A stretch of DNA of 64,000 nucleotides, from IMG/VR virus record IMGVR_UViG_3300025466_000012, positions 62,001 to 126,000 of that record; one strand, given 5' to 3'. Shown here one piece after another: positions 6,761 through 54,984 of the stretch. Position 1 is the first letter of the stretch; each line of letters opens with the position of its first letter. The notes beneath the pieces were generated by a model. It made no database searches. It saw nothing but the letters and a program-made list of their open reading frames with translations, and was not told the DNA's origin. The position numbers were made by a program, and so were the translations under genes. The stretch comes from a virus.

Positions 6761-7107
6761 TGCGCATGAGAGAAATATTTGAGGGCAACGACGTCAGCTC
6801 TCAAAAACTACTGGCCTTGAGTCAGTTCTTGGCTGGTCGAGCCAACGATCAAAATGCCCAAAAACAGATCAGCACTGACGCTTTTATCCAGGCTGCCAAA
6901 AGTCTAGGAGTAGAACTCAATGCCAACAATCTTTCTGATTACCTGCAACAAGAACCGCTCAAGGACATACTTGAGCCCATGGATCCGGGGTCGGATGTGA
7001 TACGTTTTGTTGGCAACCCTGCCGGTGGAGATGTGGGCATGCCGGTAGACCAGGCCCGAGCCGTGGTAGACAAAAACGCCAAGGCAGCTCTAAAAAGACG
7101 CACCTAA
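6760..7107 (+). CDS. Conserved phage hypothetical protein, 115 aa
   Basis: Begins with MRMREIFEGNDVSSQKLLALSQFL. The alternative ATG at 6766 (MREIFEGN) would give the same leader-type start as other proteins in this block. A helical AFIQAAKSLGVELNANNLSDYL segment resembles a conserved module in other T4-like environmental phages. It overlaps the previous stop by one base and ends the operon before a promoter. Confidence 0.7.
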   Translation: MRMREIFEGNDVSSQKLLALSQFLAGRANDQNAQKQISTDAFIQAAKSLGVELNANNLSDYLQQEPLKDILEPMDPGSDVIRFVGNPAGGDVGMPVDQARAVVDKNAKAALKRRT

Positions 7108-7111
7108 ATGG

Positions 7112-7140
7112 TTGACAATCTGTTATAAGTATACTACACT
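7112..7140 (+). promoter_or_regulatory. Sigma70-type promoter for the exported-protein pair
   Basis: TTGACA (7112-7117), a 17-base spacer and TACACT (7135-7140), 19 bases before the ATG at 7160. Confidence 0.55.
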
Positions 7141-7159
7141 TATACACTAGGAGTTGACC

Positions 7160-7465
7160 ATGAAAAAACTTATTGCAACAGGTATTCTAACACTCGCTGT
7201 GACCAGTTCACTACCAGCTGAAGCACATTGGCGCAACGGTTGTTGCTATCGCGGTTACAGTGGCTGGGTGGCGCCGGCCTTGATTGGTGGTGTGATCGGT
7301 TACGAACTGTCGAGACCCTATTACTATGCTCCGCCGCCAGTGGTACTAGTTCAACCGCCGGTAGTGGTTCAACAACCGACTCCGGTTGATCCCCCAGGAT
7401 ATCATTGGCAACAGATGACAGATCCACAAACTGGCCAAAGCAAAATGGCCTTGATACCAAACTAA
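7160..7465 (+). CDS. Exported Pro/Tyr-rich small protein
   Basis: 101 residues starting at the ATG after AGGAGTTGACC (the TTG at 7154 is rejected). A classical signal peptide (MKKLIATGILTLAVTSSLPAEA) is followed by a Cys pair (NGCCYRG), a Gly-rich hydrophobic stretch (LIGGVIGYELSRPYYY) and Pro/Val repeats. It looks like a bacterial periplasmic or outer-membrane-associated small protein. It is co-transcribed with the OmpA-domain gene 8 bases downstream. Confidence 0.72.
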   Translation: MKKLIATGILTLAVTSSLPAEAHWRNGCCYRGYSGWVAPALIGGVIGYELSRPYYYAPPPVVLVQPPVVVQQPTPVDPPGYHWQQMTDPQTGQSKMALIPN

Positions 7466-7473
7466 AGGAAATT

Positions 7474-8061
7474 ATGAAATCGTTATTGTTAGCATTATTA
7501 GTAGTAACAGGGGCCGCACAAGCTTCTAACAACTGGACCGGACTAGCTGGTCCAGTGACCAATTCCACTGGATTATGCTGGAGAAACAGTGCATGGACAC
7601 CGGCCACAGCCGAAACCAACTGCGACGGAGCCACACAGCCAGCGATCACAAAATCTGCCGAGCCTGTTGTTGTGCCCAAAGTTGAAAAATCAGTCGCAAT
7701 CGTGCAATTGCCTCCAGTGACATATTTGGCACAGTCCTTGTTCGATTTTGACCGTGCCGTGATCAAACCACAAGGTCTTCACACTCTTGATCAATTGGTA
7801 AAACGGTTAAAATCGGTCCATGTTGACAGCGTGATCGTGGTGGGACACACCGACAGTGTGGGCACCGATGCTTACAACATGCGATTGGGGCAACGACGAG
7901 CTCGAGCAGTGGCTGATTATCTGATCGGGCAAGGCATAGAGGCCAATCGTGTGTTTGCTGACAGCAAAGGCGAACGCGAGCCAGCTAGCACCAACAGCAC
8001 AGCATATGGTCGTTCCATGAATCGACGAGTGGTTGTAGAAGTCTACGGAACAGCCGACTGA
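7474..8061 (+). CDS. Exported OmpA-domain protein
   Basis: 195 residues with a signal peptide (MKSLLLALLVVTGAAQA) and a C-terminal OmpA/MotB peptidoglycan-binding domain: LFDFDRAVIKPQG, the VVGHTDSVGTDAYN strand-loop, LGQRRARAVADYL and a final SMNRRVVVEV. The GHTDxxG loop and NRRV motif bind diaminopimelate in the family. The start is the ATG after AAAGGAAATT. The product should sit in the periplasm on the cell wall; a role in lysis or in shielding the envelope is inference. Its TGA overlaps the ATG of the iscU stump. Confidence 0.85.
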   Translation: MKSLLLALLVVTGAAQASNNWTGLAGPVTNSTGLCWRNSAWTPATAETNCDGATQPAITKSAEPVVVPKVEKSVAIVQLPPVTYLAQSLFDFDRAVIKPQGLHTLDQLVKRLKSVHVDSVIVVGHTDSVGTDAYNMRLGQRRARAVADYLIGQGIEANRVFADSKGEREPASTNSTAYGRSMNRRVVVEVYGTAD

Positions 8062-8150
8062 TGGCCTATTCAGAAAAGTTACTCGATCATTATGAGAATC
8101 CACGCAATGTGGGTTCTTTTGCCAAAGACGAGGAAGGCATAGGCACCTGA
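8061..8150 (+). pseudogene. iscU: Truncated iscU stump (29 codons)
   Basis: ATG overlapping the ompA-domain stop (TGATG) encodes a 29-residue peptide beginning MAYSEKLLDHYENPRNVGSF, which is the IscU N terminus, then stops after EEGIGT exactly where IscU would continue with the VGAPxCGD loop. It lacks all three ligand cysteines and cannot work. Its codons match the surrounding phage genes, while the complete copy at 8816 is AT-richer. This suggests the stump is the original phage iscU start, cut off by the incoming cassette. Confidence 0.85.
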
Positions 8151-8226
8151 ATTAAAAAACGTGTATAATCTTAATATAGGCATTTATAAATGACCACATA
8201 CAGGTACTCCAAGACTAAATACTTAT

Positions 8227-8826
8227 ATGAAAAGCAAGTATGGTTTAATTAAAAAATGTCTTCATTGTAACCAAGATTTTGAAACAAAACCTAGATACTT
8301 AGAGTATTGTTCAACTCCTTGTAAAAATCCAATCAATCGTCCTGGAAACACTGCTTGGAATAAAGGTATTAAACTTACTAACGAACAAAAGTCTAAATTA
8401 AATATCGAAGGTCTTAAAAAAGGACACGGTTGGAATAAAGGTTTACCAAACAAAAGACAGAGTCAAAAATGGAAAGAAAATAATCCTAATGCAGACGGCA
8501 AATTAAATAATCTAAGAACTAAAAAACCTTGTAACGATGCTCTCAAACTTTATCGAGGAAAAGTTCGTTATGCTACATATAGAACTATTAAAGAAATGAA
8601 AGTTAATAATGAGTGGGTTCCTGTGTTTGGCAAATATAAACATAGTTGGCAAATAGATCATATCATTCCTATAGTTCAAGGGTTTGAATTGGGAATAGAT
8701 CCCTATTTACTTGGTAGTAAAAAAAATATACAATTTATTAAAGGTGAAGAAAACAGATCCAAGTGGGATAGTTTTCAAACTAACGATGTAATAGAGTCAA
8801 TAACAGGAGAAACATATGGCTTATAG
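8227..8826 (+). CDS. HNH homing endonuclease with NUMOD3-like repeats
   Basis: 199 residues. The N-terminal zinc finger uses Cys11/Cys14 and Cys28/Cys32. Two NUMOD3-like DNA-binding motifs follow (AWNKGIKLTNEQKSKL and GWNKGLPNKRQSQKW). The C-terminal HNH motif is WQIDHIIPIV (Asp144-His145) with GSKKNIQFIKGEENRSKW. It is strongly AT-rich compared with the phage genes. Its last 11 bases overlap the start of the second iscU, so endonuclease and target gene are physically coupled. Probably a site-specific enzyme that spreads this iscU allele. Confidence 0.88.
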   Translation: MKSKYGLIKKCLHCNQDFETKPRYLEYCSTPCKNPINRPGNTAWNKGIKLTNEQKSKLNIEGLKKGHGWNKGLPNKRQSQKWKENNPNADGKLNNLRTKKPCNDALKLYRGKVRYATYRTIKEMKVNNEWVPVFGKYKHSWQIDHIIPIVQGFELGIDPYLLGSKKNIQFIKGEENRSKWDSFQTNDVIESITGETYGL

Positions 8827-10222
8827 TGATGCTGTTTTGGATCATTACGAAAATCCAAGAAATGTGGGATCGTTTAAGAAGGGTGACGAGGGTGTTGGAG
8901 TTGGACTTGTGGGGGCACCTAGTTGTGGAGATGTTTTACAGTTAAGTATAAAGGTAAATGATGTTGGAATTATTACAGACGCCCGGTTTAAAACTTACGG
9001 CTGTTTAACTAGTAATGCTCCTGTTAATACTCCAACCTGCATTAAAAAAATAAAAGATTTAAAAATCGGCGACGAGGTGTTGGCCTGGAACGGTGAAAAA
9101 ATTGTTAATCAAAAAATACAAAATATAATTAAACATTCGGTTGATGTTGATGAGTTGTTGATTATTACTTTTAAACGCGAGACGAGTAGAAAAAATACCA
9201 ATCCTGGCACCTTCTCATTAATTTGCACAAAAGAACATATATTTTGGAATGCCGATAATACACCAGTAGAAGCACAACAACTACAAGTAGGTCAAGAGTT
9301 GTATGAAATAACCGAACACGAGTTACGAATTCTTACAAATAATAGACATCGCACAGAACTCAAACAAAAAAATAGCAATAGAATGAAAGAATGGAATCAA
9401 ATTTTTGATCATTCAGTATTACCACAAAATCAATCCGGGTATGTGTGTAAAGATTTAGAAACCAAAAAGAAAAAATCTAGGATTGCTTCTTTAAAAAATT
9501 GGAAAGATTCTGATTATGTCAAAAAATGGCAACAGGGAATGGCACGAAGAGATTGGTCTAAACCTACTAGTATTGAACAAAAATATATTGATTTATTTGA
9601 AGAAAACAATGTAGCAATAAAATGGAGTGCTGGAAAGATATGGATTCAAACTGATGCAGGACCAGCAAGCCCAGATTTTATTGTTCCTGGTAAGAAAAAA
9701 TGCATAGAAGTGTATACAAAGCGTATGCCCAAATTCATGCAAGATAGGTCAGAAGAATCAAATTATGTAGTGAATCGTCGCAAACAGTTGGCCACAGCCG
9801 GCTACGATTCATTATTTTTAGCAATAGAAGATATTGATAAATCATTGTCAGAAGTGCAAAATTTCATTCATAACGGAATGAAAATTGTAGATGTTTCACC
9901 AATTACTCATTTAAATCAGTTACGCGGTTGTGAAAGAGATGGAAAATCAGTTGTGGTATATGATTTAAAATTAGAGGGTGGAGCTCATGTGTTTTTCTCT
10001 AACAGAGTTGGGTCACATAATTGTGGATCGGCTATTGCATCATCCAGTCTTATCACTGAATGGGTCAAAGGGAAAACACTGGACGAAGCAGGAAGCATTA
10101 AGAACAGCCAAATTGCTGAAGAGTTGGCGCTCCCGCCCGTCAAAATACATTGTAGCATATTGGCAGAATCCGCCATTACAGCGGCAATTGACGACTATAA
10201 GAAAAGACATAACCTAACATAG
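8816..10222 (+). CDS. iscU: Fe-S cluster scaffold IscU interrupted by an intein
   Basis: 468-residue precursor. Residues 1-62 and 403-468 join into a 128-residue IscU, the length of the E. coli protein. Mature IscU receives sulfur and iron and builds [2Fe-2S] clusters for apo-proteins. All active residues are present: Cys37 and Asp39 (SCGD), Cys63 (YG/CGS, the splice junction), the LPPVK chaperone motif and Cys106 (IHCS). The intein occupies residues 63-402. It is followed by a Vsr-like endonuclease gene and then iscA. The exteins use AT-rich codons unlike the local stump. Splicing activity is predicted from motifs, not shown. Confidence 0.93.
   Translation: MAYSDAVLDHYENPRNVGSFKKGDEGVGVGLVGAPSCGDVLQLSIKVNDVGIITDARFKTYGCLTSNAPVNTPTCIKKIKDLKIGDEVLAWNGEKIVNQKIQNIIKHSVDVDELLIITFKRETSRKNTNPGTFSLICTKEHIFWNADNTPVEAQQLQVGQELYEITEHELRILTNNRHRTELKQKNSNRMKEWNQIFDHSVLPQNQSGYVCKDLETKKKKSRIASLKNWKDSDYVKKWQQGMARRDWSKPTSIEQKYIDLFEENNVAIKWSAGKIWIQTDAGPASPDFIVPGKKKCIEVYTKRMPKFMQDRSEESNYVVNRRKQLATAGYDSLFLAIEDIDKSLSEVQNFIHNGMKIVDVSPITHLNQLRGCERDGKSVVVYDLKLEGGAHVFFSNRVGSHNCGSAIASSSLITEWVKGKTLDEAGSIKNSQIAEELALPPVKIHCSILAESAITAAIDDYKKRHNLT
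9002..10021 (+). mobile_element. Intein (340 aa) with Vsr-like endonuclease domain in IscU
   Basis: Begins at Cys63 (block A CLTSNAPVNTPT, then DLKIGDEVLAW) and has block B with Thr138 and His141 (LICTKEHIF). Block F is VVVYDLKLEGGAHVFFSN, and block G ends in His401-Asn402 before Cys403 as the +1 residue, so every class 1 splicing residue is in place. The middle lacks LAGLIDADG. It has the E...PDF...IEVY pattern (Glu254, Asp287, Glu298) of Vsr/EDxHD-type nucleases, preceded by a basic DNA-binding-like segment. Removal in frame restores a standard IscU. Confidence 0.9.
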
Positions 10223-10248
10223 AACAAATAACTTTGCTAAATAAAGTT

Positions 10249-10995
10249 ATGAATAGGTGTAAATGTGGTTGTGGAATATCACTTAGAAAAGATAATAGAA
10301 CTGGATACCAAAAAGGTCATAAACCATGCCCTATTTGCGGTACACTGATAAAGGGCTCAAGTATAGAGTGCTGTTCAAAATCTTGCTCTGCTAAACTACA
10401 CTGGCAAAGAAATCCAGATATGGCAGAATCTAGAACCTGGAATGCTGAACGATATGCTACTAGAGAACAGAATAGAGATACTTGGGTTAAAAACTTGTCA
10501 AATGCTTGCAAAGGTAGAACTCCTTGGAATAAAGATACGCAAGGATTACAAGTAGCGTGGAATAAAGGGTTACCTGGTAATTTTAAGGGAAAGAGGCACA
10601 GTTCTGATTATATTGAAAAAGTTAAAAAGACCAATCTTGAAAGATATGGTGTAGAAAATGTTGGACATTTTGCTAAAACTTCTCCTCGTAGTAAAAAAGA
10701 AAAATCTCTAGAAACAATTTTAATTGATTATGAGATCAATGTTAAAATTGGAAAATACAAACCAGATTATGTGAATGAATCAACTAAACACATAATAGAA
10801 ATTTATGGTGATTACTGGCATTGTAATCCAAAATTATTCAATAAAGATTTTTATCATCCTCAGCTGAAAAAGACAGCCGAAGAAAAATGGTTATTAGATT
10901 TAACTAGACAACAGTATTTTGAATCTTTAGGATACACAGTAGAAATAATATGGGAAAGCGAATTAGATGATTACCGTAACCGACACGGCCAGTAA
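10249..10995 (+). CDS. Vsr-like (EDxHD) homing endonuclease
   Basis: 248 residues from the ATG at 10249 (MNRCKCGCG); the TTG at 10234 is less likely. N-terminal Cys clusters (CKCGCG, CPICG, CCSKSC) look like zinc ribbons. NUMOD3-like repeats (TPWNKDTQG, AWNKGLPG) and the TNLERYGVENVG motif follow. The catalytic domain has Glu155, Asp173 (KPDY), EIYGDYWH (184-191) and LDLTRQQYFESLGY-VEIIWESEL, the Vsr-fold pattern. It is AT-rich and overlaps the iscA start by 29 bases. Together with the intein nuclease it brackets the C-extein of iscU. Confidence 0.85.
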   Translation: MNRCKCGCGISLRKDNRTGYQKGHKPCPICGTLIKGSSIECCSKSCSAKLHWQRNPDMAESRTWNAERYATREQNRDTWVKNLSNACKGRTPWNKDTQGLQVAWNKGLPGNFKGKRHSSDYIEKVKKTNLERYGVENVGHFAKTSPRSKKEKSLETILIDYEINVKIGKYKPDYVNESTKHIIEIYGDYWHCNPKLFNKDFYHPQLKKTAEEKWLLDLTRQQYFESLGYTVEIIWESELDDYRNRHGQ

Positions 10996-11293
10996 AAAGA
11001 TTGCGCAGAATCTCCAACGCCGCGGACACGGTGTGGGTATCCGAGTGGGTGTGCGCACCACTGGGTGTTCGGGCTTGGCCTATGTGTTGGAATATATAGA
11101 TGACATAACCAAGACTTCTGGGGCCATCGATCATGCTCATGACGATTTTGTCATAAGAATAGACCAACGTGATATTGCCTATCTCGAAGGCATGACCATA
11201 GACTATGTGCGTCAAGGACTCAACGAAGGATTTGAATTCGTGAATCCCAACGAACGGGATCGTTGCGGGTGTGGAGAAAGTTTTCGCGTATGA
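10967..11293 (+). CDS. iscA: A-type Fe-S carrier protein IscA
   Basis: 108 residues of the HesB/IscA family, which carries clusters or iron from IscU to target enzymes. The three ligand cysteines are Cys34 (TTGCSGLAY) and Cys100/Cys102 (DRCGCGESF). Codon use is ordinary for this phage, so it predates the cassette upstream. The adjacent iscU makes a minimal scaffold-plus-carrier pair without the desulfurase or chaperones, so the phage would rely on host IscS and HscAB. Its stop overlaps the next ATG. Confidence 0.93.
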   Translation: MITVTDTASKKIAQNLQRRGHGVGIRVGVRTTGCSGLAYVLEYIDDITKTSGAIDHAHDDFVIRIDQRDIAYLEGMTIDYVRQGLNEGFEFVNPNERDRCGCGESFRV

Positions 11294-11958
11294 AAATCTG
11301 CATAGTAGGATTTCCTAGATCTAGAAGTAGTCTTCTTTTAGAAGCTATCGGAAATCATCATGGAATACCTATTTTGGGTCAAGACTTGGAACAGATTGTT
11401 AGCTTACCTAACATAGCCCCACACTCTGAGCAGTACATGAAATTGCTGGCTGGAATACTAACCAAACCGGTTGGAGTAATAAGATTACATCCTGCTCAGC
11501 TTGCATACAAAAAAATCATCTGCGAATTTGACCTGTTTAATTTTGAACAGTACACCCACATCTATCTAACTGCTAGACGGTGTATAGCAGATGCAATCAG
11601 CAGCAATTTGGTAGCCCGCCATCTAAATATGTGGAACTACAATCAAGATAATCCGTCTCTCGAATTTGTGGAGCCTATCGAACTAACCGAGCAATATCAC
11701 AAAGATGTAAAACATTATGTGTATAGCGAGCATATTATGGCCGAATTACAATCGTATTTCTTGAATAAAAATATTAAATTCACACAGTTATACTATGAGG
11801 ATATTCCAGAATTTGTTAGAGACAATCTTGGAAATACCGATGTGTCTCATGTGAAGACCAATTATCAATACAGTACCATAATTAAAAACTACAATAGCAT
11901 AATGCAGTTATACCATATCTACAAAGAACAGTTACAACAGTTGACATTGACGCAGTGA
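11290..11958 (+). CDS. Sulfotransferase-like P-loop protein
   Basis: 222 residues. N-terminal CIVGFPRSRSSLL is the 5'-phosphosulfate-binding loop of sulfotransferases, and LTARRCIADAISSNLVARH resembles the 3'-phosphate-binding RxxxxxxxS segment. PAPS-dependent transfer of sulfate to a glycan or small molecule is the family activity; the substrate here is unknown. The gene is clearly more AT-rich than iscA and probably a recent acquisition. The start is the ATG of the ATGA overlap with iscA. Confidence 0.75.
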   Translation: MKICIVGFPRSRSSLLLEAIGNHHGIPILGQDLEQIVSLPNIAPHSEQYMKLLAGILTKPVGVIRLHPAQLAYKKIICEFDLFNFEQYTHIYLTARRCIADAISSNLVARHLNMWNYNQDNPSLEFVEPIELTEQYHKDVKHYVYSEHIMAELQSYFLNKNIKFTQLYYEDIPEFVRDNLGNTDVSHVKTNYQYSTIIKNYNSIMQLYHIYKEQLQQLTLTQ

Positions 11959-11970
11959 TAGTGTTATAAT
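11941..11970 (+). promoter_or_regulatory. Sigma70-type promoter
   Basis: TTGACA (11941-11946), 18-base spacer, TATAAT (11965-11970), inside the end of the sulfotransferase gene and 6 bases before the next ATG. A transcript from it would have almost no leader. Confidence 0.55.
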
Positions 11971-11976
11971 AACACA

Positions 11977-12693
11977 ATGTACAATCCTCGATTCAATTAC
12001 CAACCCATACCCAGAGAAACTGTGGATGGTCGACGCTTGTATGCCACACCCGATGGCGGTCGACTGCCCAGCGTGACTACCATACTGGAGGCCACCAAAC
12101 CTGAAGAGAAACGCCAGGCATTGCAAAACTGGCGCAATCGTGTGGGGCATACACAGGCACAGGCCATCACGACTGAAGCGGCCAATAGAGGCACCAGGAT
12201 GCACAAGTATCTGGAAGATTATACAAAAACAGGTGCCATTGCTGATCCTGGATCCAATCCTTATAGCCAACAAAGCCATACCATGGCACAGACTATTATA
12301 ACAAACGGTCTGTGCCACGTGAGCGAGGTCTGGGGCTATGAGGTTCCGCTGTATTTTCCTGGCATCTATGCCGGAACCACGGATGCCGCTGGTCTACATC
12401 TGTATCAACCGAGCATTCTGGATTACAAGCAGACCAACAAGCCCAAACGACGTGAGTGGATTGAGGACTATTTCTTGCAACTGTGTGCCTACGCCGAAGC
12501 GCACAATGCAGTACATGGCACCGACATACAAAAAGGTGTGGTACTCATGTGTGTCAAACCCGAGATGGATGACCAAGGTAACTTGATCACTCAGCCGCAA
12601 TATCAAGAATTTGTCATTGAGGGCGCCGAGTTTGAACTGTATCGCCAGCTATGGTGGCACAGGGTTGAACAGTACTATCTAGCGAATCACTGA
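11977..12693 (+). CDS. PD-(D/E)XK nuclease (MGME1/RecB-like exonuclease)
   Basis: 238 residues. Motifs in order: LPSVTTIL, RGTRMHKYLE, PGIYAGTTDAAG (metal-binding Asp), SILDYKQTN (catalytic Asp-x-Lys) and DYFLQLCAYAEA. This set is typical of the MGME1-like exonucleases found in T4-like environmental phages, which likely act in recombination or DNA processing. It is convergent with the short minus-strand gene, with a 7-base overlap. Confidence 0.82.
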   Translation: MYNPRFNYQPIPRETVDGRRLYATPDGGRLPSVTTILEATKPEEKRQALQNWRNRVGHTQAQAITTEAANRGTRMHKYLEDYTKTGAIADPGSNPYSQQSHTMAQTIITNGLCHVSEVWGYEVPLYFPGIYAGTTDAAGLHLYQPSILDYKQTNKPKRREWIEDYFLQLCAYAEAHNAVHGTDIQKGVVLMCVKPEMDDQGNLITQPQYQEFVIEGAEFELYRQLWWHRVEQYYLANH

Positions 12694-51159: not shown

Positions 51160-52404
51160 TTAACCTAGGAACGCCACTGACCAGTTGTCGTTGCCATCAA
51201 AAATAAGTGAACCAACAGTTACTTTAAGTGTAAGTGTGTCTCCTGCCGCCAGTTTTGATACCGTGCCAACACCAAAATGATTAATACTAGGGTTGGCACC
51301 TGATTCCCACATGACTTGATTTACATTACCTGACCCATAGTTTTTGATAACAATGGCCTGTGCGCTTGGTGAAGTATTATTTGCCACACGGCAAACAAGA
51401 TTTAATTGATATAGACCAGCCACGGGTGCGGTAAACACCCCTGTTGACGAATTCAAGTAACCGCCTTGATTGTAATCCACTGCCCAGTTGTTGCCGTTTA
51501 GAATGCCTGTGCCGTTGGTTGTAGTGCTCCAGATTGATGAACTATTGCCATACACACGGAATGCTGGCAAGTTTGGAATTTTGACGCCGCCCGAGCCAGA
51601 TACAGTAACATTGCCGGCAACACTTACTGTATTGCCAAACTGTGCCGGAGTGATGTTTGTAACTATCAACTGTCCGGTGCCGTTTGGATCAACGGTAATA
51701 TTACCATTTGTGACGCTGGTCATTGTGGTGTTGGCACTGAACACCAAATCCCCGTTTGTGGGCAGGGTTACGTTGCCGGTGTTGTCAAAAGTCCAAGTAT
51801 ATGATCCAGCAACTATGCCTACGTTGGCCTGTGCTCCAACCACGTTGCCAGCAATTGAAATGTTTCCAATTAGGTTACCGGCTGTAATATTACCACTAGT
51901 AGAAATAGTATTGCTACCGTATGCAGCCAAGAAAGTAGCCACGTTTGAGTTGCCGTATGTTGCTGGTAGGCCAGTTAACTGACTACCGTTACCAAAGATA
52001 TAAGCACCTGTGATATTGCCGGCAGAACTGATTACGGATTGTGAGTTGGCCAATAGAATATCGCCACCAGTTGGAACGGTCAAGTTACCAGTGTTGTCAA
52101 AGGTCCAGGTATAGCTACCGGCTACTAGTTGAACATTTGGACTTGTTCCTGTTACGTTACCTGTGATGCTAATATTACCAATCAAGTTACCGGCTGTAAT
52201 ATTACCACTAGTAGAAATAGTATTGCTACCGTATGCGGCCAAGAAAGTAGCCACGTTTGCGTTGCCATAGCTTGCGGCAATACCGGTCAGTTGCGATCCG
52301 TTACCCAGTATGTAATTGCCTGAAACGTTGCCAGTGGTAGAAACCACCGTGTTACTAATTACATTGTTAGCCTTGATGTTTATGTACGAACTTAGATCAG
52401 CCAT
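51160..52404 (-). CDS. Modular tail-fibre protein with C1q-like C terminus
   Basis: 414 residues. The N-terminal ~250 residues are two near-identical 104-residue repeats (ATFLAAYGSNTISTSGNITA, GSYTWTFDNTGN). The C-terminal domain (PAFRVYGNSS, GGYLNSSTGVFTAPVAGLYQ, LAAGDTLTLKVTVGS) has the pattern of a C1q/TNF-like trimeric head, a common receptor-binding fold in fibres. It shares the ILGNGSQLTGI module with the two larger fibre genes upstream. Confidence 0.8.
   Translation of the reverse strand: MADLSSYINIKANNVISNTVVSTTGNVSGNYILGNGSQLTGIAASYGNANVATFLAAYGSNTISTSGNITAGNLIGNISITGNVTGTSPNVQLVAGSYTWTFDNTGNLTVPTGGDILLANSQSVISSAGNITGAYIFGNGSQLTGLPATYGNSNVATFLAAYGSNTISTSGNITAGNLIGNISIAGNVVGAQANVGIVAGSYTWTFDNTGNVTLPTNGDLVFSANTTMTSVTNGNITVDPNGTGQLIVTNITPAQFGNTVSVAGNVTVSGSGGVKIPNLPAFRVYGNSSSIWSTTTNGTGILNGNNWAVDYNQGGYLNSSTGVFTAPVAGLYQLNLVCRVANNTSPSAQAIVIKNYGSGNVNQVMWESGANPSINHFGVGTVSKLAAGDTLTLKVTVGSLIFDGNDNWSVAFLG
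51874..52236 (-). repeat. 312-bp direct repeat inside the fibre gene
   Basis: A 51-base stretch at 51874-51924 recurs exactly at 52186-52236, and similarity extends well beyond on both sides. The 312-base period equals 104 codons, so unequal recombination would add or remove whole modules in frame. Confidence 0.8.
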
Positions 52405-52416
52405 TTGTTTTCCTCG

Positions 52417-54984
52417 TTACCCTGCGTTGTATGTGCGCCATGTTGAGCCATTATAGAACAGGCCAAAGCTCTGGTTGTTTGTGCTGACTGTCATGTTACC
52501 GGTTGCACCCATTATGGTGCGACCATTTGGATTGACAACCAAGTTGTTTGTGGCAAAGGCGCCGCCTGCATCGGCAAAGAATATGGCACCACCGGTTGCT
52601 GGGCTGGCCGGTAGTGTGGCTGTGACCGAGTTGCTCACAGTGTTGACTCCGTATCTATTGCCGGTTGTGGCTGCAAAATTGTTGCTTTGTATAGTAAATG
52701 CGGCTTCACCGGCACTGGCCTGTATGCCAGTCAACTGACTACCGTTACCCAAGATATAGTTACCGGTGATGTTTCCAACTGCACTGATACCAGTCTTGGA
52801 AAATTCTGCCACAATATTGGCTGTGTTGCTACCATCGGCTATGATCCGCACCACACCGTTGGCTTCGTTGGTACCAATCACCAAGTTACCGGTCTGACCA
52901 TTTCCGGTGCCTTGTACATACATATAGCCATCATTGGAGTTTAACGAACTGCCAAGACTGTTGTATGATCCAGGAACATAGCTGCCACCTGCAATACCCA
53001 TGTCAATAAAGTGAATGGTGTCTGACCCGTTGTCGGCTGTGGCAATATAGTCCGTGGTTGACGCGATCCCAGGATCGATATTTTGGAAATTGATCTGGCT
53101 GTAACTGTTGGCATTGCCAGAAAACTGTGCGACCACGTTGCTTGGCAAATGTGTGAACAATTGGATACCAGCATACAAAGCATTGTCGCCGCTCTGGGCA
53201 TTACCAGTCAATGAAGCCACACCAGTCAGGAATCCGCTGGCTGTTATATTGCCTGCGGCCGACACATTGCCAGGCAAAGTGGTATTACCATCAAATCCAA
53301 AGATCCAGTTGCTACCATCTACTTCGAGTCCGGTCCCCACAGTGCCAAATGCTGTGCTGAACCGATAGCTCTGTCCGGCCTGGAAGACTCCACCAGTAAT
53401 AACAATGGTGCTGGTTCCTTGATCTTGCGAAGCCACCGTAGCATTGACTACACCGGGTCCGTTGACCTTGTAACCAACCAGGTTGATGTTGTAGTTGAGA
53501 TACGGGAAAGTGCCAGTAGAACTGTTGACTCCGGATGTGTTTGTGTCGGTTTGTGTGATAGCGGCATCACCAAAGTTCGAACTGTTTGGCAGTGTCAAGT
53601 TACCGCTGGTGCCAAAAGTCCAGGTCGGTCCGTTAGTGTTGATCACGATGTTACCGCTTGGAGATGTCACATTGGCCCAGCTGAATCCGTTTATGATGTA
53701 GCTGGAATTGCCACCGCTACCGCCTCCTGGTCCAGCTACAGCCAAGAATCTGATCTGTACCACGTCACCATTGTAAGGCGCTGTGCTAAAGGTTATACTG
53801 TTGCCGGCAACATCATAGTCAACGTCGGGAGTTTGTGTAATACCGTTTATGGTCACCAACACAGTATTGGCCGTGGCCGATTGCAACAAAGTAAATGTGT
53901 TGGCAACATTGTTGCCTTCTACAGTTTGATTGATTATGCTGGTAGGTGGAATGATACCAGTCAAGTAATAGCCGTTACCATAGTAATATCCAGCAGAGAT
54001 GTTGCCGGTGGTGCTAATGGTGTTGGAGCCGAAATCAGACAAGAAAGCAGCCACATCTGAATTGCCATAGTTTCCGCCCAAGGACACCTGTGTACCGTTG
54101 GCATAATACACATCAAAAGTGTTGCCTGATAGATTCAAGTTGCCGGCCAATGACAAATTACCATCAGTGCCAAAACTCCATTCATTACCGGCGATACCAA
54201 TGACCAAATTGCCATCGGTTGTGGCTATGTTGGCATAGCTGTTGCCGTTGAAAATCTTGTTTGAACTGGCATTGATACCGGTCAACTGTGATCCATTACC
54301 AAAATAGTAATTGGCGGCAACATTGCCGGTCACATTGACCACCCCGGTGCCGTTGGCAGTGAGAGTGACATTGCCGTTGGCCAATGTGCTTGTGATGGTA
54401 TTGCCGTTGATTTTTAAATTGCCAATGACAGTATTGCCCGGCAGGTTGGTGACACCTTTGAGTCCAATGTATCTGTAGCCCGAGACATAAATCACATTAC
54501 CTGAGGTAAGACTAGCCGGTATGGTATTGCCAATAAAGTTTAACAGTCCGGCTTGGTTGTCAAAAAAGTATTCACCAGTGCCGCCGGATCCAGCAGCAAA
54601 CAATTGAGTACCAGTGGACTGTATATTGGCCGCACCAGGTGGCCCGGCATAGACCTTGACCAACCAGGTGCTTCCAAATTCAGACGGAATCCAATCGGTC
54701 AATCCGGTCAACCAGGTAGGATTCACTCCACCAATCAGGCCCACTGTAGGGTCGGCTGTACACTGTACACTGCTTCCGCCCAGATAACTTTGTGTGATAC
54801 CACTCACAGTCTGAGCTGTAGCTGGAATTTGATCACTCTGTGTCCATACTATGTCACCGGCCAACAAGGGTGGGCTGGCTATGCTTTCGTTGCTGGGTGC
54901 CTTGGGCGGATTGGTGTCGGTCTTGGCCACACCAAATAATTTTTTAACTAATAGATCAATGTATTGTGCTTGTGATATTGCCAT
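52417..54984 (-). CDS. Large modular tail-fibre protein, 855 aa
   Basis: N-terminal attachment domain (QAQYIDLLVKKLFGVAKTDT, PPLLAGDIVWTQSDQIPAT) followed by repeated fibre modules such as YFGNGSQLTGINASSNKIF, WSFGTDGNLSLAGNLNLSGN and YILGNGSQLTGIQAS. The end is FGLFYNGSTWRTYNAG. Gly/Asn/Thr-rich beta-structure without Cys in the shaft suits a long trimeric fibre. Modules are shared with both neighbours. Confidence 0.82.
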   Translation of the reverse strand: MAISQAQYIDLLVKKLFGVAKTDTNPPKAPSNESIASPPLLAGDIVWTQSDQIPATAQTVSGITQSYLGGSSVQCTADPTVGLIGGVNPTWLTGLTDWIPSEFGSTWLVKVYAGPPGAANIQSTGTQLFAAGSGGTGEYFFDNQAGLLNFIGNTIPASLTSGNVIYVSGYRYIGLKGVTNLPGNTVIGNLKINGNTITSTLANGNVTLTANGTGVVNVTGNVAANYYFGNGSQLTGINASSNKIFNGNSYANIATTDGNLVIGIAGNEWSFGTDGNLSLAGNLNLSGNTFDVYYANGTQVSLGGNYGNSDVAAFLSDFGSNTISTTGNISAGYYYGNGYYLTGIIPPTSIINQTVEGNNVANTFTLLQSATANTVLVTINGITQTPDVDYDVAGNSITFSTAPYNGDVVQIRFLAVAGPGGGSGGNSSYIINGFSWANVTSPSGNIVINTNGPTWTFGTSGNLTLPNSSNFGDAAITQTDTNTSGVNSSTGTFPYLNYNINLVGYKVNGPGVVNATVASQDQGTSTIVITGGVFQAGQSYRFSTAFGTVGTGLEVDGSNWIFGFDGNTTLPGNVSAAGNITASGFLTGVASLTGNAQSGDNALYAGIQLFTHLPSNVVAQFSGNANSYSQINFQNIDPGIASTTDYIATADNGSDTIHFIDMGIAGGSYVPGSYNSLGSSLNSNDGYMYVQGTGNGQTGNLVIGTNEANGVVRIIADGSNTANIVAEFSKTGISAVGNITGNYILGNGSQLTGIQASAGEAAFTIQSNNFAATTGNRYGVNTVSNSVTATLPASPATGGAIFFADAGGAFATNNLVVNPNGRTIMGATGNMTVSTNNQSFGLFYNGSTWRTYNAG

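Follow-up and report, generated by a model that had tools for sequence, protein, structure and literature searches.

Inteins and homing endonucleases are known from several systems that bear on the phage gene described here. The closest known intein of an Fe-S scaffold protein is that of SufB from M. tuberculosis, which has a Gly before Cys1, a His-Asn end and a Cys at position +1 (PMC8891592). Mycobacteriophage inteins are inserted at functional motifs and spread between phages; in the accessible part of that report, their hosts include terminase, RecB-like and nucleotide-metabolism proteins, and no Fe-S scaffold is mentioned (PMC5050341). An E...PD...E active-site pattern is found in the EDxHD/Vsr-like and PD-(D/E)XK homing endonucleases (PMC3943268). 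In T4 gene 60, which has a homing endonuclease neighbour, a stop codon follows the GGA take-off codon, and bypass involves a take-off stem-loop and a matched landing codon; the insert may protect the gene against the nuclease (PMC5009743). According to the same 2016 review, natural in-frame stop hopping had no known occurrence, and short-range counterparts of T4 gene 60 have long been presumed to exist. Marine viral genomes are known to carry iscU itself as an auxiliary gene (PMC5332604).

Here we analyze a phage iscU gene that carries a predicted intein at the codon of its ligand Cys63, together with related genes, whose stop-insertion alleles are the most surprising result. The intein shares with that of SufB an Fe-S scaffold host, the preceding Gly, the His-Asn end and the +1 Cys. 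It differs in that the scaffold is IscU and not SufB and that its +1 Cys is the IscU ligand Cys63, whereas the SufB intein is chromosomal, with no phage copies or sequence relation shown. A literature search found no published report of an IscU or NifU intein, most subscription papers being outside its reach, and the IscU intein is apparently unreported before.

Structure of the iscU locus

The window is a stretch of 64,000 nucleotides from a 199,683-base record of a virus of bacteria. The neighbouring genes, which include a DnaB-like helicase, ribonucleotide reductase, DNA ligase and tail fibres, fit a T4-like tailed phage. Its ribonucleotide reductase DNA is ~67% identical, over short stretches, to the closest counterpart in named phages. 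The features of the locus are as follows.

8061–8150, + strand: relic of the native iscU start, ~30 codons (MAYSEKLLDHYENPRNVGSFAKDEEGIGT, then TGA); its ATG overlaps the stop of an OmpA-like gene
8227–8826, + strand: HNH-type homing endonuclease gene, overlapping the iscU ATG; motif HSWQIDHIIP...N read from the sequence
8816–9001, + strand: IscU N-extein, residues 1–62, with divergent codon usage
9002–10021, + strand: predicted class-1 intein, 340 residues, Cys1...His339-Asn340 (family alignment, AlphaFold model, PDB matches)
9002–9301, + strand: N-terminal part of the Hint domain with blocks A and B (Cys63, Thr138-x-x-His141)
9557–9856, + strand: putative Vsr/PD-(D/E)XK-like endonuclease domain (Glu254, Pro286-Asp287-Phe288, Glu298-Val-Tyr300; invariant residues, weak profile match)
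9869–10021, + strand: C-terminal part of the splicing domain with blocks F and G (Asp383, His401-Asn402)
10022–10222, + strand: IscU C-extein, whose first residue is the +1 Cys403 (Cys63 of spliced IscU)
10234–10995, + strand: gene for a free-standing Vsr-like endonuclease, located between iscU and iscA and overlapping the iscA start at its end
10967–11293, + strand: IscA/HesB-type Fe-S carrier gene (TIGR00049 above cut-off; TIGR02011 1e-36, below cut-off)

The ORF at 8816–10222 is a single open frame of 468 amino acids. It matches the NCBIfam IscU model TIGR01999 (196.1 bits against a cut-off of 192.4) and Pfam NifU_N (1.9e-46), each in two stretches. Between the NifU_N stretches, Pfam Hint matches weakly (8e-05, below the Pfam cut-off), and the NCBIfam intein models give no match to the protein. 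The intein corresponds to precursor residues 63–402, and its removal would leave a 128-residue IscU with the three ligand cysteines Cys37, Cys63 and Cys106, as the earlier note had deduced. A class-1 intein is expected to have Cys, Ser or Ala at position 1, Thr-x-x-His in block B, a His-Asn end and Cys, Ser or Thr at +1, all of which are present (C63, T138-x-x-H141, H401-N402, C403). The complete motif set recognized in that note is borne out by the family alignment, in which Cys63, His141, His401 and Asn402 are invariant and Thr138 is nearly so. The AlphaFold model of the intein has a pLDDT of 82.7 and a pTM of only 0.55, and its best PDB matches are inteins (gp41-1, E 3.6e-05), so that the expectation of a Hint fold is met by the predicted structure. 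The proposal that the splice cysteine is also the cluster ligand holds for the +1 residue Cys403; it fails for Cys63 of the precursor, which leaves with the intein.

Outside the window, at ~51260–54053 of G000:C1 (L386:261-3054), a UvsW-like helicase gene lies in two ORFs, fractured by a split intein with the junctions VIVDE/CFAGDS... and ...VVSN/CHMAKA and a separate endonuclease ORF in between.

Distribution and mobility of the intein

A search of viral sets for IscU inteins had been suggested in the earlier note. Scanning IMG/VR with the C-junction pattern HN/CGSAIA retrieved 41 contig stretches, all 41 of which are IscU inteins at the Cys63 codon. They comprise 29 distinct full-length sequences that belong to one family; the bacterial members raise this number to 32, including one unrelated sequence. 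The family is invariant at Cys1, His79 (block B), Asp321, His339 and Asn340 (intein numbering). In one relative (L086/L006), the iscU C-extein contains an in-frame TGA at a position where its relatives have Trp (SSSLVTE-stop-VKGK).

When 84,980 species genomes were scanned with this pattern, 30 stretches were retrieved, five of which are IscU or NifU-like inteins:

L274, Candidatus Achromatium palustre: relative of the phage intein
L295, Thiotrichaceae MAG: relative of the phage intein
L286, alphaproteobacterial MAG: relative of the phage intein
L287, Myxococcales MAG: relative of the phage intein
L283:6425-7999, Sungiibacteriota MAG: unrelated LAGLIDADG-type intein in a NifU-like protein, at the same Cys63 position and apparently with Ser as first residue

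The upstream gene in the Achromatium and Thiotrichaceae contigs has an IscS-like end, which identifies both as isc operons. No homologous intein was found in 369 genomes drawn from the class of Achromatium beyond the two seed genomes. The novelty supposed earlier thus survives as far as published reports go but does not extend to a restriction to phages, as bacterial contigs carry homologous inteins at the same site. CAKLQH020000011.1 (L388), named Acinetobacter phage MD-2021a, is among the top IscU matches in the phage collection; it was discarded as a phage iscU, as its iscR-iscS-iscU-iscA-hscB-hscA operon looks like bacterial DNA.

The endonuclease domain of the intein has an invariant signature (Glu192, Pro224-Asp225-Phe226 and Glu236-Val-Tyr238, intein numbering), a pattern similar to that of the enzymes in PMC3943268; the same type is found free-standing beside iscU. 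Pfam detects no endonuclease in this domain, and hhalign relates it only weakly to the free-standing Vsr-like family (P 2.2e-4, probability 45%). The domain looks Vsr/PD-(D/E)XK-like by motif pattern and this weak profile match alone, and it differs from the published enzymes in being embedded in an intein. The dN/dS values of 0.13 for the splicing domain and 0.14 for the endonuclease domain demonstrate that both are under purifying selection.

Near-identical inteins occur in dissimilar backgrounds. The intein DNA of L005 is 99.7–99.8% identical to that of L114 and L102, whereas identity outside the intein is 68% in the N-extein, 88–91% in the C-extein and 30–62% in the flanks. L004 and L104 are 100% identical in the intein, the C-extein and downstream, but only 55% in the N-extein, and their upstream sequences are unrelated. 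This is the pattern of recent horizontal transfer; the cleavage itself is inferred.

It could be argued that the window ORF is an assembly chimera or a degraded insertion that breaks iscU, as its N-extein, intein and C-extein differ in base composition and one relative has the in-frame TGA in its C-extein. However, the relic, the HNH gene, the iscU-intein ORF, the Vsr-like gene and iscA recur identically in four further contigs (IMGVR 3300025773_000005, 3300025781_000014, 3300004684_000595 and 3300004095_000149), which settles the question of a chimera that the earlier note had raised. The frame is also open throughout, the same codon is occupied by the 29 distinct viral inteins, and the dN/dS values are low. 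We regard a chimera or degraded insertion as practically ruled out, and we are highly confident that 9002–10021 is a mobile class-1 intein in a phage IscU and that iscU is a homing hotspot, with splicing and cleavage inferred from sequence.

The precursor would splice itself by an N-S shift at Cys63, transfer to Cys403 and cyclization of Asn402, which would yield the 128-residue IscU in which Cys403 serves as the Cys63 ligand. The Vsr-like domain would cut an intein-less iscU at the Cys63 codon, and repair would copy the intein in. In a more speculative reading, the intein is splicing-dead or regulatory, and slow or redox- or metal-conditional splicing, the latter suggested in the earlier note, switches IscU on in some states. 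The dual role of the +1 nucleophile as a cluster ligand is compatible with such a switch, as are the dependence of SufB precursor splicing in M. tuberculosis on extein residues (PMC8891592) and, as far as the accessible parts of the sources show, the conditional splicing reported for other inteins (PMC7360933, PMC6195587). On the other hand, neither an additional conserved cysteine nor an extein feature pointing to a switch was found, and a sporadic distribution with recent transfer between backgrounds is what a plain mobile element would be expected to show, which leaves a regulatory role improbable. As a mobile intein, the element adds IscU, the central Fe-S scaffold, to the intein-bearing proteins, with a splicing +1 cysteine that doubles as a cluster ligand; it has spread among phages and is present in bacterial isc operons.

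Composite insertion around iscU

The relic upstream of the HNH gene shares 70% amino acid identity with IscU residues 1–30 and 90% DNA identity over 72 nt with the iscU of L008, whereas the N-extein in use has at most 73% DNA identity to any iscU compared. GC content changes stepwise: the relic has 44%, the HNH gene 31%, the N-extein 41%, the intein 33% and the C-extein 45%, and GC3 is 29% in the N-extein versus 42% in the C-extein. Because of the relic, these steps and the divergent N-extein, we read the locus as a composite insertion: the HNH gene, bringing its own re-coded iscU start, would have taken the place of the native start and 5´ half, with the intein arriving with or after them and the relic left behind. 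The native 3´ end is retained as the C-extein, and the Vsr-like gene follows iscU. Neither the surrounding insertion nor the interrupted relatives described below had been recognized in the earlier note.

All 32 relatives of the HNH gene found in IMG/VR immediately precede an iscU start, with an overlap or a gap of a few bases. The window Vsr-like protein matches the vsr model (1.1e-05, below cut-off) and the homing endonuclease family phrog_3339 (8.7e-04), and close relatives of its gene lie directly downstream of iscU. Other endonuclease-like ORFs, not of the window HNH type, are found directly upstream of iscU in L168, L173, L265, L271, L221 and L104. Most of these loci also have a stop insertion at Gly38; in L104 the iscU start is intact and divergent.

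Stop insertions at Gly38 and Pro101 in related iscU genes

The window iscU has intact Gly38 and Pro101 codons and no stop insertion. In relatives, the gene is interrupted at Gly38 in the pattern ...Cys37-GGN-(TAA/TAG/TGA)-0 to 4 nt-GGN-Asp39.... The inserts are 6, 7, 8 or 10 nt long, so that the coding sequence resumes in all frames. Carriers include L127, L129, L131, L137, L143, L151, L204 and L237, and an HNH-type gene usually overlaps or touches the iscU start. Take-off and landing are always GGN to GGN, and in about half of the cases the two triplets are identical.

A scan of IMG/VR for a stop after Gly38 found at least 63 interrupted loci, some on contigs already seen, and 43 of the 63 matches listed have a detectable HNH gene. 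The scan covered TAA and TGA only and does not allow prevalence to be estimated; as it required a stop, it is silent on how universal the stop is. The loci retrieved through HNH, IscU, intein or Vsr searches do bear on this, and their interrupted alleles likewise have the stop immediately after GGN. When the iscU genes preceded by HNH and with a readable N-half are considered, 15 of 31 are interrupted at Gly38 (L129, with an in-frame insert, was scored intact yet has the Gly38 stop). Only two of the 80 best IscU loci, chosen without regard to HNH, have an interruption, and an HNH gene is detectable in one of these two. The intein and an interruption coexist in some loci (L102, L114 and L107).

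The second pattern, ...Pro100-CCN-TAA-C(T/C)N-Val102-Lys-Ile-His-Cys106, occurs in L329, L331, L333, L335, L336, L338 and L339, which are followed by a divergent Vsr-type gene, and also in L193 and L194, which carry both interruptions. Inserts of other sizes are found in L332 (5 nt), L334 (7 nt) and L351 (2 nt). The landing triplet is usually CTN, not CCN. The closer relatives of the window Vsr-like gene flank iscU genes that are mostly intact at Pro101.

Evidence for a proposed ribosomal bypass of the stop insertions

Interrupted alleles have a hairpin that ends on the last sense codon. At Gly38, its mean z by group is −3.4 to −6.2, compared with ~0 in intact alleles without HNH; at Pro101 it is about −4.7, compared with about 0 in intact alleles. 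Covariation analysis finds 99.1% of cells paired at Gly38, with 18 double-changed cells versus 5.2 in shuffles, and 97.2% paired at Pro101, with 8 versus 2.4. A Shine-Dalgarno (SD)-like motif precedes the hairpin in 23 of 23 interrupted and in 12 of 110 intact alleles, and its distance to the landing site with the hairpin folded is 9–14 nt. The alleles are related, so that these counts are not independent; the two sites agree nonetheless.

A stop codon in mid-gene, usually with a change of frame, could mean that the interrupted genes are dead. Yet the sequence after the Gly38 stop has a dN/dS of 0.088, the same as in intact genes (0.090), and the tails after Pro101 have 0.13; the hairpins covary, and no second iscU copy was found in 10 records of up to 367 kb. 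Death of these genes is hence very hard to sustain. With a stop, downstream coding selection and structured RNA, the Gly38 and Pro101 alleles fit programmed ribosomal bypass, in which the mechanism and the single polypeptide are inferred.

Termination and reinitiation, which would give two IscU fragments that assemble, could also explain the stops. In many Gly38 alleles codon 41 is an in-frame ATG, closely preceded by GGAG in some of them, and reinitiation could conceivably make use of the hairpin and the SD-like motif. However, L151 and L237 lack any ATG, GTG or TTG in the 40 codons past the stop, and several other alleles have no start within 33 codons. After Pro101, the tail of only 26–31 residues opens with a GTN codon and has no nearby start. 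A split gene is therefore unlikely, though less so than a dead one. Against bypass, take-off and landing codons do not match in every case; at Pro101, where most inserts are in frame, simple readthrough is possible.

Several other explanations were rejected. A single programmed frameshift cannot account for inserts of 6, 7, 8 and 10 nt and of 2, 5, 6 and 7 nt, which need all three frames. Stop codon reassignment is inconsistent with the occurrence of TAA, TAG and TGA and the usual change of frame. The hairpin is not a mere product of the iscU coding sequence, given the z near 0 of intact alleles. Rfam does not point to a group I intron or another known RNA element behind the relic or the interruptions: there is no match at E ≤ 1 in window positions 7000–12000, and six related loci have none of this kind. 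The same architecture beyond iscU, sought in 3.1 Mb of collected loci, gave only 22 matches, most of which look like frames without a recognizable protein.

Proposed endonuclease targeting and stop hopping

The Cys63 intein, the HNH-type neighbours with Gly38 interruptions and the Vsr-type neighbours with Pro101 interruptions together make the regions around the ligand cysteines 37, 63 and 106 endonuclease-associated. We lean, with reservations, towards the view that homing endonucleases target these regions of phage iscU and that natural stop-hopping elements protect the gene while ribosomes cross them to make uninterrupted IscU. The HNH and Vsr-like proteins would cut near codons 37–38 and 101–106, which is inferred from association only, and a site interrupted by the intein or by an apparently bypassed stop insert would be both occupied and immunized. 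The putative stop-hopping element consists, in order, of an SD-like AGGAG, a hairpin ending on the last sense codon, the stop codon and 0–4 further bases. Bypass at Gly38 would give exactly wild-type IscU, and the Cys63 intein would be the protein-level version of the same trick.

Like T4 gene 60, the interrupted iscU genes have an endonuclease-linked insert, a stop immediately following the take-off codon, a stem-loop that involves this codon, and out-of-frame resumption. Unlike T4 gene 60, the gap is 3–7 nt instead of 50, the hairpin lies 5´ and ends on the take-off codon with an SD-like motif before it, two sites occur in one gene, and the landing codon is not always matched. If bypass holds, the alleles form a family of short programmed bypasses, which would have arisen at two sites within a single gene. 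Different homing endonucleases apparently attack the small iscU near each ligand cysteine, and the gene copes with interruption in two ways, through protein splicing and through apparent ribosome hopping. Its interrupted alleles provide dozens of compact, directly testable candidates for stop hopping.

Two further alleles deviate from these patterns. Beside a Vsr-like gene, the iscU of L118 has a frameshift at about codon 103 near VKIHC, an apparent 1-nt deletion without a stop, which is either a sequencing error or a third type of interruption. L120:3166-4575 combines HNH and intein with a retained Gly38 hairpin and no stop insertion, like a revertant.
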